35,437 bases of DNA. Source: an uncultured bacterium (GTDB lineage: Bacteria > Bacillota_I > Bacilli_A > RF39 > UBA660). The stretch lies in assembly GCA_946611605.1 (NCBI GenBank), contig CAMODU010000010.1, forward strand, positions 1 to 35,437, written 5' to 3'. Shown in pieces: positions 832-22,527 of this stretch. The notes beneath the pieces are model-generated. The model searched no databases. It was not told the DNA's origin and worked only from the letters and a program-made list of their open reading frames with translations. How positions within the stretch are numbered: position 1 is the first letter of the stretch; each line of letters begins with the position of its first letter. The position numbers were made by a program, and so were the translations under genes.

Positions 832-859
832 TTGAAATAATAAATAATTATGTTATAAT
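832..859 (+). promoter_or_regulatory. Promoter of the T-box-like leader / glyQS operon
   Basis: TTGAAA at 832-837, a 16-base spacer, then TATAAT at 854-859 with an upstream TG (851-852), giving an extended -10. It starts immediately after the stop codon of the upstream gene. Transcription would begin near 866, which fixes the leader at roughly 120 bases before the first start codon. Confidence 0.75.
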
Positions 860-865
860 TTACTT

Positions 866-974
866 ATTAAAGCGATGACGGGGTTGGAATCCAAGAGCTA
901 TAAGAAGAGAATAAGACCAAAGTATGGTGGAACAGCGGTAATACGCCCATACATATTTGGTCTTTTTATTTTTT
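866..974 (+). promoter_or_regulatory. Compact T-box-like leader (predicted glycine tRNA sensor) with terminator
   Basis: The core at 922-952 has the T-box antiterminator layout: helix GTATGG/CCATAC (922-927 with 947-952), a seven-base bulge UGGAACA (928-934), then helix GCG/CGC (935-937 with 944-946). The bulge reads UGGA, which would pair with a tRNA ending UCCA; bacterial tRNA-Gly has U at the discriminator position, and the operon encodes glycyl-tRNA synthetase. Upstream, 871-899 can form a short stem-loop (AGC/GCT and TTGG/CCAA), with glycine codons GGG or GGA inside it (880-888). A terminator helix (914-921 with 956-963) is followed by a U-rich run. Stem I is far shorter than in standard T-boxes. 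Predicted to tune glyQS expression to uncharged tRNA-Gly. Confidence 0.7.
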
Positions 975-985
975 AGGAGGTGTAT

Positions 986-1537
986 ATGAGAGTTTTTATT
1001 GCATCATCAGGAAAAGAAGGAATTCTTAATATTTATAAAGAATTAGCTTCAGGAGTTGCTACTATACTAGCAAGAAATGATTATAAGTTAGTATATGGTG
1101 GTGGTGATACTGGAATGATGGGGACTACTTACATGACATATAAATATGAAGGTAAGAAAGTAAAAGGTTTTTATGATATTACGGATGCAACAGTAGCTGA
1201 AAGATTAGAACTTGATGCTGTAGATGTATCACCTAATACATTTGAAAGAACTAAAAGATTATATGATCATGCAGACTTGATAGTTATACTTCCAGGAGGA
1301 GTTGGTACTCTTGCTGAATTATATTCAGTAATAGTAGAGAAACAAACTAAAAATGATATCAATAAAAGAATAATATTATTTAATTATAATAAATATTTTG
1401 ATAATATTTTATATCATTTTAAAGATATGTTAGATGAAAGATTTATTACAGAAGATACATTACAGATGTTTGATATTATAACTAATTTAAATGACTTTGA
1501 AGAATATATTAATAAAATAAATAAGGAGGAAGAATAA
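986..1537 (+). CDS. LOG-family nucleotide phosphoribohydrolase-like protein
   Basis: A 183-residue Rossmann-like protein with the two signatures of the LOG (formerly 'lysine decarboxylase-like') family: YGGGDTGMMG near residue 38 and PGGVGTLAE near residue 105, which form the nucleotide-binding and catalytic pocket. Characterised members cleave cytokinin or AMP-type nucleoside monophosphates to base plus ribose 5-phosphate; the bacterial physiological substrate is often unknown. The start is ATG 986, five bases after AGGAGG (975-980); an in-frame GTG at 980 overlaps that site and is unlikely. It is the first gene behind the T-box-like leader and lies one base before glyQS, so it should share glycine-tRNA control. 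Why a LOG protein sits in this operon is unclear. Confidence 0.88.
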   Translation: MRVFIASSGKEGILNIYKELASGVATILARNDYKLVYGGGDTGMMGTTYMTYKYEGKKVKGFYDITDATVAERLELDAVDVSPNTFERTKRLYDHADLIVILPGGVGTLAELYSVIVEKQTKNDINKRIILFNYNKYFDNILYHFKDMLDERFITEDTLQMFDIITNLNDFEEYINKINKEEE

Positions 1538-1538
1538 T

Positions 1539-2915
1539 ATGGAAAAAAGTATGGAAAAAATAGTTAATTATTGTAAACAATATGGATATATATTCCAAGG
1601 TAGTGAAATATATGGTGGTTTAGCTAATACTTGGGATTATGGTTCATTAGGAGTTGAATTAAAGAATAATATTAGAAAAGCTTGGTGGAAGAAATTTATC
1701 CAAGAAGTACCTAATAACTACGGATTAGATTCAGCTATATTAATGAATCCTGAAACATGGGTTGCATCAGGTCATGTTGCATCTTTTACAGATCCATTAA
1801 TTGATTGTAAGCAATGTAAAGCAAGACATAGAGCTGATAAATTAATAGAAGACTTTACTAATGGTAAAGAAACAGGAGATGGATGGGATAATAAAAAGTT
1901 AGAAGATTTTATTAAAAAGAATAATATTGAATGTCCTAAATGTGGATCTCATAACTTTACTGAAATCAGAAAGTTCAACTTATTATTTGAAACCCATATG
2001 GGTGTAACTGAAGATAGTAAAAATGTAGTATATTTAAGAGGAGAAACAGCACAAGGTATATTTGTTAATTTCTTAAATGTACAAAGAGCAGCACGTGCTA
2101 AAGTTCCATTTGGAATAGGACAAACTGGTAAGAGTTTTAGAAATGAAATAACTCCAGGTAATTTTATATTTAGAACTAGAGAATTTGAACAAATGGAATT
2201 AGAGTTTTTCTGTAAACCAGGAACTGATCTTGAATGGTTTAAATATTGGAAAGACTATTGTATGAACTTCTTATATACTTTAGGATTATCTGAAGGTAAT
2301 TTAAGATATAGAGATCATGCTAAAGAAGAATTAGCTTTCTATTCTAAAGCTACTACTGATATTGAATATAATTTCCCAATTGGATTTGGTGAATTATGGG
2401 GTATAGCAGATAGAACTGACTATGATTTAGGTGTACATATGGAACATTCTAAAGAAGACTTAAGATATTTAGATCCTGAAACTAATGAAAAGTATTTACC
2501 ATATGTAATTGAACCTTCTGTTGGTTTAGATAGATTAGTATTAGCTATTCTTACAGAAAGCATGCAAGAAGAAACATTAGAAAATGGAGATATAAGAGAA
2601 GTATTAAAATTAAAACCATTCTTAGCTCCATATAAAGTAGCTGTACTTCCTTTAATTAAGAAGAATCATGCTGATAAAGCTATGGAAGTATATAATAATT
2701 TATCTAAGTATTTTATGTGTACATATGATGAATCAGGTAATATAGGTAAACGTTATAGAAGAAATGATGCAATTGGTACACCATTCTGTATAACTATTGA
2801 TGATGAAACATTAAATAATGGTACTGTAACTTTAAGAGATAGAGATACTATGGAACAAGTTACATTAAAATTAGAAGAAGTACAAAAATATATTGAAGAT
2901 AAGTTAATTTATTAA
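1539..2915 (+). CDS. glyQS: Glycyl-tRNA synthetase, single-chain homodimeric type
   Basis: A 458-residue class II aminoacyl-tRNA synthetase of the eukaryote/archaeal-like homodimeric type used by many Firmicutes, not the alpha2-beta2 GlyQ/GlyS type. It charges tRNA-Gly in the cytoplasm. Visible features are the N-terminal GGLANTWDYGSLG segment, CxxC pairs (CKQC and CPKCGSHNF) of the insertion domain, motif 2 (FRNEITPGNFIFRTREFEQMELEFF, shown here only as a landmark in parts FRNEI and REFEQMELE), motif 3 (EPSVGLDRL) and a C-terminal anticodon-binding domain. Length is normal. ATG 1539 follows AGGAGG by 7 bases. It is the second gene behind the leader at 866-974, whose T-box bulge matches tRNA-Gly. 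Confidence 0.97.
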   Translation: MEKSMEKIVNYCKQYGYIFQGSEIYGGLANTWDYGSLGVELKNNIRKAWWKKFIQEVPNNYGLDSAILMNPETWVASGHVASFTDPLIDCKQCKARHRADKLIEDFTNGKETGDGWDNKKLEDFIKKNNIECPKCGSHNFTEIRKFNLLFETHMGVTEDSKNVVYLRGETAQGIFVNFLNVQRAARAKVPFGIGQTGKSFRNEITPGNFIFRTREFEQMELEFFCKPGTDLEWFKYWKDYCMNFLYTLGLSEGNLRYRDHAKEELAFYSKATTDIEYNFPIGFGELWGIADRTDYDLGVHMEHSKEDLRYLDPETNEKYLPYVIEPSVGLDRLVLAILTESMQEETLENGDIREVLKLKPFLAPYKVAVLPLIKKNHADKAMEVYNNLSKYFMCTYDESGNIGKRYRRNDAIGTPFCITIDDETLNNGTVTLRDRDTMEQVTLKLEEVQKYIEDKLIY

Positions 2916-20775: not shown

Positions 20776-22527
20776 ATGAATCTAAAGGATTTATATATAA
20801 ATTATTTTGTTAGTAAAGGACATAAGCAAATTCCAAGTGCTCCAGTAGTACCTGAGAATGATCCTTCAGTATTATTTAATACTGCAGGTATGCAACCATT
20901 AATACCATATTTAATGGGACAAGAACATCCTTATGGTAAAAGACTAACAGATTATCAAAAATGTGTAAGAACTAATGATTTAGATAATATAGGTGATACA
21001 TATCATCATACATTCTTTGAAATGTTGGGTAACTGGTCATTAGGAGATTATTTTAAAAAAGAAGCTATTGAATGGTCATTTGAATTCTTAACTAAGGAAT
21101 TAAATATTCCTAAAGAAAGATTAGCTGTAACTATATTTGCAGGTAATGACACTATACCATTTGATCAAGAAGCTCATGATTTATGGATAGAACAAGGTAT
21201 TCCTGAAGAAAGAATTGCTCCAACAAGTGACGATAACTTCTGGATAGCTGGTGAAACAGGACCATGTGGACCAGATACTGAAATGTTCTACTGGAGAAGT
21301 AATGATCCAATTCCTGAAAAATTTGATACTGAAGATGAAAGATGGGTAGAAATTTGGAATGATGTATTCATGCAATTTGAAAAACATGAAGATGGATCTG
21401 TTACTGAACTTAAAAACAAGAATGTAGATACAGGTATGGGTGTAGAAAGAACTACAGCAATACTTGAAGGTGTAAATGATAATTATCAATCATCAATCTG
21501 GATACCTACAATTAAATTAATTGAAAGTATATCTGGTTTATCTTATGAAGGTAATGAAAAATCAATGAGAATAATTGCAGATCATTTAAGAACAGCAGTA
21601 TTTATTCTTGCTGATCCTGCAGGTATTAAACCTTCAAATACAGATCAAGGATATATTTTAAGAAGATTAATAAGAAGAGCTATAAGACATGCTAAAAATT
21701 TAAATATAGATATTAATTCCGATTGGGAACAACAAATAGCATCATTATTATTAGACCAATATGATACATATTATTCAGAATTAAAAGATAATAGACAAGT
21801 AGTATTAGAAGGTTTATCTAATGAAAAAGTAAAATTCAATAGAACTTTGGAAAAAGGTTTAAGAGAATTTGAAAAAGTAACAAGAAATAATGAAGACATC
21901 GATGGTGTTACTGCATTCCATTTATTTGATACATATGGATTCCCAATTGAGTTAACTGAAGAGTTAGCTAAAGAAAAAGGATTAAAAGTAGATATAGATG
22001 GATATAAAGCTAAGTTTAAAGAACATCAAGAATTATCAAGAACAGCATCACAAGGTAAATTTAAAGGTGGTTTAGCTGGTAATTCAGAAATAGAAACAAG
22101 ATATCATACAGCAACACATTTACTTAATGCTGCATTAAAAGTAGTTATTGGTCCAGATGTACATCAAAAAGGATCCAATATAACTGATGAAAGAATGAGA
22201 TTTGATTTCTCATGTGATCATAAATTAAGTGATGAAGAAAAGAAACAAGCTGAAGATCTAGTTAATCAATGGATTAAAGAAGGTTTAGATGTTGTTAGAA
22301 AAGAAATGCCTAAACAAGAAGCAATTGATTCTGGTGCTGAATGTATGTTTATTGAAAAATATCCAGATATAGTATCAGTATATATAATTGGTGATGGTAT
22401 ATCTAAAGAATTATGTGGTGGTCCACATGTATCTAATACAAGTGAATTAGGACATTTCAAGATTACTAAGGAAGAAGCTAGCTCACAAGGAGTTAGAAGA
22501 ATAAAAGCTATATTAGAGGAGGAATAG
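20776..22527 (+). CDS. alaS: Alanyl-tRNA synthetase, shortened form
   Basis: A 583-residue AlaRS; usual bacterial length is about 870-880. The catalytic domain is intact, with SAPVVPENDPSVLFNTAGMQ (as N-terminal landmark), THHTFF-like YHHTFFEMLGNWSLGDYFK and GMGVERT. The tRNA-recognition helices follow, with YILRRLIRRAIRH near residue 295. The editing domain keeps its zinc-site motifs HTATH (444-448) and CGGPH (547-551). Missing are the beta-barrel subdomain that normally precedes the editing site (no 'FYAEGGGQ' segment) and the whole C-Ala/DHHA1 part. The stop is followed 3 bases later by mscL, so there is no remnant downstream. It should still charge and proofread Ala-tRNA. Similar short forms are common in reduced lineages, from memory. 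Confidence 0.95.
   Translation: MNLKDLYINYFVSKGHKQIPSAPVVPENDPSVLFNTAGMQPLIPYLMGQEHPYGKRLTDYQKCVRTNDLDNIGDTYHHTFFEMLGNWSLGDYFKKEAIEWSFEFLTKELNIPKERLAVTIFAGNDTIPFDQEAHDLWIEQGIPEERIAPTSDDNFWIAGETGPCGPDTEMFYWRSNDPIPEKFDTEDERWVEIWNDVFMQFEKHEDGSVTELKNKNVDTGMGVERTTAILEGVNDNYQSSIWIPTIKLIESISGLSYEGNEKSMRIIADHLRTAVFILADPAGIKPSNTDQGYILRRLIRRAIRHAKNLNIDINSDWEQQIASLLLDQYDTYYSELKDNRQVVLEGLSNEKVKFNRTLEKGLREFEKVTRNNEDIDGVTAFHLFDTYGFPIELTEELAKEKGLKVDIDGYKAKFKEHQELSRTASQGKFKGGLAGNSEIETRYHTATHLLNAALKVVIGPDVHQKGSNITDERMRFDFSCDHKLSDEEKKQAEDLVNQWIKEGLDVVRKEMPKQEAIDSGAECMFIEKYPDIVSVYIIGDGISKELCGGPHVSNTSELGHFKITKEEASSQGVRRIKAILEEE

Follow-up and report, generated by a model that had tools for sequence, protein, structure and literature searches.

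A short candidate glycine T-box ahead of glyS in one family of uncultured Bacilli

The leader, its operon, and its match to tRNA-Gly

The window (the whole stretch of DNA analyzed here, 35,437 nucleotides) carries near its start a promoter, a short leader RNA, and an operon in which a LOG-like gene precedes glyS (Table 1). The first gene 3′ of the leader is the LOG-like gene and not glyS, a correction to the first-pass annotation. A predicted 219-aa protein is encoded immediately 5′ of the leader (169 to 828), and a Pfam search with it gave no match. Elsewhere in the window (20776 to 22527) lies a gene for a PRK01584-type alanyl-tRNA synthetase, compact at 583 aa, which ends after the second additional domain.

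Table 1. Positions of the leader elements, promoter, and operon genes in the window
Feature	Position	Strand	Remark
Promoter TTGAAA-16-TATAAT, TG before the −10 box	832-859	+	−10 box ends at 859; 11/12 matches
Leader RNA	from about 866	+	start expected near 866
Stem I, ultrashort	871-899	+	about 29 nt; covariation among homologues
Base helix of Stem I	871-873/897-899	+	
K-turn signature, GAUGA with GA	874-878 with 895-896	+	
Upper Stem I helix	G881-G882 with C891-C892	+	weak in the window's species
Apical loop UUGGAA	884-889	+	specifier GGA at 886-888
Linker, purine-rich, without Stem III	900-921	+	3′ part is the terminator 5′ arm
Terminator 5′ arm AGACCAAA	914-921	+	partner 956-963
Antiterminator	922-952	+	A1 helix GTATGG 922-927/CCATAC 947-952; A1 covaries
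A2 helix GCG/CGC	935-937/944-946	+	
T-box bulge UGGAACA	928-934	+	UGGA 928-931 complements UCCA of both tRNA-Gly
Terminator 3′ arm, then U-run	956-963, U-run to 974	+	
Ribosome site AGGAGG	975-980	+	
LOG-like Rossmann-fold gene (TIGR00730-like)	986-1537	+	first gene of the operon
glyS, dimeric-type glycyl-tRNA synthetase	1539-2915	+	second gene

Judged from its sequence, the segment from 866 to 974 appears to be a short glycine T-box with its own promoter, ahead of the LOG-like gene and glyS, and would sense tRNA. The antiterminator, bulge, GCG/CGC helix, terminator arms, and U-run all lie where the first-pass annotation had placed them. The predicted fold of 866 to 976 has an energy of −27.9 kcal/mol (z = −3.46), and none of 200 shuffled sequences folded as low. 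A transcription start far upstream of 866 was looked for and rejected, given that the −10 box ends at 859. Among homologous leaders, the −10 box of the best promoter was found 10 to 22 nt 5′ of GATGA in 65 of 75, compared with 29% in shuffles. Because the promoter sits at this fixed short distance in the window and in its homologues, no Stem I is hidden upstream. Nor is there room for Stem II, since just 22 nt separate Stem I from the antiterminator; the first-pass view that a normal Stem I or Stem II could not fit was thus borne out by a 29-nt Stem I, a 22-nt linker, and a promoter ending at 859. The elbow-binding part (IDTM) and Stem II are both absent from the window's leader.

A search of the window with Rfam at its cut-off gave no match. 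At a loose threshold, T-box model RF00230 did match the leader, though at 16.3 bits against a cut-off of 93; two further loose-threshold matches in the window were attributed to chance. Elsewhere in this genome Rfam matched nine T-boxes, with E values from 1e-21 to 2e-11.

Stem I consists of the K-turn signature and a hairpin whose apical loop carries GGA (GGC in some relatives). An RF00005 search of the window's genome found tRNA-Gly genes with anticodons UCC and GCC, which match GGA and GGC specifiers. Both encode CCA and have discriminator U, and so end in UCCA, which is complementary to the UGGA of the bulge, as the first-pass annotation had anticipated. The loop sequence UUGGAA complements, base for base, positions U33-A38 (UUCCAA) in the tRNA-Gly(UCC) that the genome itself encodes. 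Across the bacterial family, the complementary run between loop and anticodon loop, scored against the tRNAs of the window's genome, is five to seven bases. The base 5′ of the codon was U in 46 of 46 ultrashort leaders that were found with a covariance model and parsed; this recheck was made on model-found leaders because our first search pattern had demanded U before GG. The full-length glycine leaders that we read have A, C, or U at this position. Pairs flanking the GGA codon probably form with the anticodon loop. The upper Stem I helix is only 2 to 3 bp in the window, and the window's UUGGAAUCCAA could fold on itself and mask the codon. Other loops were seen elsewhere. Genome G153 has two ultrashort leaders (L172, 500 to 592; L221, 301 to 395), one with a UGGGA loop, and a leader in genome G222 (L233, 291 to 387) has UGGUA; these are possible GGG or GGU specifiers.

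Conservation, covariation, and distribution

The glyS loci of relatives were collected by a whole-genome search with the window's GlyRS. The short leader was present at all eight same-genus glyS loci that were read (L010-L017) and in other genera of the family (L018, L019, L020, L021, L025, L026, and L028). A pattern built from those leaders recovered at least 118 stretches in GTDB contigs, about 90 of them low in GC and ending in a U-run; matches from genomes of high GC content, among them L042 and L043, were discarded as chance. The matched records are named as Bacilli, Tenericutes, Erysipelotrichaceae, Clostridium, or Candidatus Ventrenecus metagenome-assembled genomes. We take the bacterial family that carries the short leader to be GTDB order RF39.

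Anchored parsing of 93 leaders gave a consistent layout. The 3-bp base helix occurs as AGC/GCU, UGC/GCA, GGC/GUC, GAC/GUC, UCC/GGA, or CGC/GCG; GAUGA stands opposite GA; the upper helix has 2 to 5 bp; and the loop is UGGAA in 83 leaders and UGGCA in 10. The 3′ half comprises the linker, Stem III in most leaders (typically AUUC-UUCUA-GAAU), A1, the bulge UGGAAC(C/A), and A2. When 42 leaders were aligned with MAFFT, changes on both sides were seen at 12 of 20 pairs, with 86 such cells compared to 25 in shuffles; pairing held in 93.9% of cells, a share that did not exceed 49.3% once the partners were slid. The A1 and A2 helices were paired in 99.6 and 100% of cells, respectively. The first-pass annotation had asked for covariation in the helices flanking the bulge, and A1 covaries at four pairs. 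When strands were swapped between species, the upper Stem I helix weakened (z = −9.3), as did the outer terminator helix (z = −14.5 overall and −3.5 among the ten leaders lacking Stem III); the corresponding figure for A1 is biased, because the A1 3′ strand was located by complementarity. Covariation and strand swaps support the base helix, the mini Stem I, the antiterminator, and the outer terminator helix.

Of the 125 leaders that were checked, almost all of them from a single family of uncultured Bacilli with small genomes, 119 have this layout ahead of glyS. The specifier codon in the loop (GGA or GGC) therefore fits the regulated amino acid. The glyS gene lies within 1.5 kb in these 119, and five of the six leaders without glyS behind them are near a contig end. 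A LOG-like gene stands between leader and glyS in the window and in 22 of the 119 other leaders.

Genomes were then searched with a covariance model, R1, built from the short leaders. At E 1e-3, 192 of 193 family genomes match, most with best matches above 60 bits. In the order sample, which held this family alone, 110 of 146 genomes match at E 1e-8. The class sample gave matches in 23 family members and in one of about 216 others (G304), where the locus (L224) proved on reading to be the 3′ part of a full-length leader. In the phylum sample, the eight genomes that match are all family members; about 284 others gave no match. The short layout was thus not found in other families of the class and phylum samples. 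Full-length T-boxes from the window's genome do not exceed 40 bits with R1. Three low-scoring matches (L226, L239, and L224) turned out to be the 3′ portions of full-length leaders, and R1 matches under about 60 bits were for this reason read before being counted as short. Full-length glyS leaders occur in other families and in a few members of this one, so the first-pass concern that homologues might have a full Stem I holds for those few, whereas glyS leaders in the family are mostly short. With RF00230, matching family members score 33 to 50 bits, and every sampled member falls below the cut-off of 93.

An enclosing terminator and how it might switch

In the usual T-box, the 5′ strand of the terminator is built from the A1 and A2 3′ strands (PMC7583486). 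Here, the predicted terminator draws its 5′ arm from upstream of A1 in 74 of 79 nonredundant leaders, and in 70 of those 74 the antiterminator is still paired inside the enclosing terminator. The first-pass observation that the terminator arms flank the antiterminator, so that both can form together, is thus reproduced in the predicted folds of 70 of 79 homologues, and terminator and antiterminator are not mutually exclusive in them. In most relatives the outer helix competes instead with Stem III; the two are mutually exclusive because the loop and 3′ strand of Stem III make up the terminator 5′ arm. Of 23 full-length T-boxes scored outside the family, 18 are of the usual type and the remaining ones look like miscalls of the U-run. 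Inside the family, mostly in the window's genus, 12 of 32 full-length T-boxes are nested, and several re-use the A1 5′ strand. In five same-genus examples (L004, L006 on the reverse strand, L007, L008, and L293), the terminator arms flank an intact antiterminator and the 5′ arm overlaps the Stem III region. These nested full-length T-boxes rule out an enclosing terminator as unique to the short leader.

Stem III is present in 69 of 79 family leaders, and the terminal A2 pair is G·U in 64 of 79. In the window, Stem III is absent, the terminal A2 pair is G-C, and the bulge has ACA in place of ACC. Bulge ACA together with the G-C pair was found in 9 of 10 leaders without Stem III and in 2 of 69 with it; because the leaders in question are relatives of one another, these cases do not count as independent events. 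Stem III is lost in the window's genus and in L040, L057, L062, and L134, where the purine-rich linker itself is the arm. The published discriminator consists of Stem III with flanking purines and the G·U terminal A2 pair (Li et al. 2019, as described in PMC7583486), of which the G·U pair is the chief sensor of 3′-aminoacylation, and the published antiterminator without Stem III hardly binds tRNA (PMC7583486). The ACA/G-C change is the chief ground for doubting charging sensitivity in the window's genus.

Taken together, the conserved and covarying elements, their place in the operon, the match to tRNA, and the nested terminator point to a glycine-specific transcriptional T-box of new architecture, in which a tRNA bridge would block the outer terminator helix; we consider this reading probable. 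The tRNA binding, the charging sensitivity, and the role of the outer helix as switching element are inferred. The hairpin of about 29 nt, made of the K-turn and mini-stem, would offer its apical loop to the anticodon loop of tRNA-Gly(UCC), pairing through the codon GGA and probably through another one to three base pairs beside it, which would offset the lack of contacts to the elbow and by Stem II. In either state the core of the antiterminator could fold, and its UGGA bulge would receive the UCCA end of uncharged tRNA. By spanning loop and bulge, the tRNA would hold the linker taut, and in most relatives Stem III would sequester it as well; the outer helix could then not close, and the LOG-glyS operon would be transcribed. 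With charged tRNA-Gly, the bulge contact would fail, 914-921 would pair with 956-963, and transcription would stop.

The linker lengths are compatible with the tRNA bridge of stem and bulge that the first-pass annotation had suggested. In leaders without Stem III, 5 to 13 nt (about 10) separate Stem I from the closed outer helix, and 19 to 24 nt are available if it is open. Geometry was estimated from the A-form rise and tRNA dimensions. If the acceptor stacks towards A1, the anticodon would lie about 110 Å from the foot of the closed outer helix. A mini-stem of about 25 Å with a linker of 5 to 13 nt is estimated to span less than this, and 19 to 24 nt with the outer helix open to reach A1. 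By this estimate the linker in the closed state is too short, and a tRNA bridge would thus seem to preclude closure of the terminator. Stacking of the acceptor towards A1 corresponds to the published central spine (PMC7583486).

The first-pass annotation had left a choice between a decayed T-box and a switch that works differently. Decay, with antiterminator and terminator kept and tRNA sensing lost, would account for the missing Stem III, the weak upper Stem I, the ACA bulge, and the poor Rfam score. It is very improbable: across genus and family, conservation and covariation hold for the loop, bulge, K-turn signature, and outer helix, and the layout lies beside glyS at a fixed distance from the promoter. 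That the switch differs held at the level of anatomy (an ultrashort Stem I, no Stem II, an enclosing terminator); its operation is as proposed above.

Two further readings keep tRNA binding. Leaders of the window's genus might bind tRNA-Gly and not tell charged from uncharged, and so report how much tRNA-Gly is present or how far the synthetase is occupied. The sieve as described (PMC7583486) has two parts, and both are altered there, Stem III being gone and ACA/G-C present as counted above; however, charging sensing makes the most sense of glyS regulation, the C that replaces U may still clash with the aminoacyl group, and the closed outer helix could add discrimination. We regard this reading as unlikely. 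Less likely again is a slip of register, in which, in the off state, the bulge UGG would be masked by pairing with CCA from the 3′ strand of A1 until tRNA restores the antiterminator register. The slipped register appears in the predicted terminator folds of the window, L010, L012, and L017, and AUGG/CCAU replaces AAGG/CCUU within this group. It is not consistent among these leaders: the folds of L011, L015, L062, and L134 stay in the normal register, and the repeat that a slip needs is missing from L040 and L057.

The bridging reading can be taken further, tentatively and at less than even odds, for the window's genus. Its leader may be a minimal tRNA riboswitch, in which a mini-hairpin kisses the anticodon loop beyond the codon, a bulge in a constitutive helix binds the tRNA end, and the tRNA acts as a strut that blocks the enclosing terminator, with no IDTM, Stem II, Stem III, or antiterminator strand exchange.

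Relation to known T-boxes

T-box binding is augmented by the IDTM, Stem II, or both (PMC10482949), and as a rule a T-box acting on transcription needs a long Stem I, while Stem III is indispensable (PMC7583486). Set against this, a whole bacterial family appears to run a glycine T-box without IDTM and Stem II, and one genus also without Stem III. Our sequence comparisons, which took in over a hundred related genomes, indicate a real, lineage-wide design that does without elements previously regarded as essential. With a length of about 100 nt, it offers a compact model for asking what a tRNA sensor minimally needs. Because the Rfam model scores these leaders below cut-off, T-boxes in these bacteria are undercounted. 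TBDB mentions sequences with predicted truncated Stem I (PMC7778990), and some short-leader members may therefore already be listed there.

Four classes of T-box are distinguished (PMC10482949): class I has a long Stem I and Stem II; class II, glycine-specific, a long Stem I without Stem II; class III a short Stem I with an apical specifier and a required Stem II; and class IV is intermediate. (Sherwood et al. 2015 and Li et al. 2019 are cited here through PMC10482949 and PMC7583486.) By its anatomy the short leader would work like a T-box, though without the usual mutual exclusion of terminator and antiterminator. With RF00230 it shares the 3′ region that holds the antiterminator, although it scores below that model's cut-off. 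Like class II, of the Bacillus subtilis glyQS type (PMC10482949), it is glycine specific, would control a glycyl-tRNA synthetase, and has a transcriptional terminator, a K-turn signature, a UGGA bulge, and no Stem II. Class II has a long Stem I with an IDTM and an internal-loop specifier, whereas here Stem I is 29 nt with an apical specifier, the promoter is directly upstream, the terminator encloses the antiterminator, and the window's genus is without Stem III. The short Stem I without IDTM and the apical-loop specifier are shared with class III, of the Nocardia farcinica ileS type (PMC10482949). That class, however, needs a Stem II with an S-turn and is mostly translational, isoleucine specific, and actinobacterial; the leader described here has no Stem II, a terminator switch, and a glycine specifier. 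It thus has class III traits in its short Stem I and apical specifier and class II traits in its lack of Stem II, glycine specificity, and transcriptional output, and fits none of the four classes.
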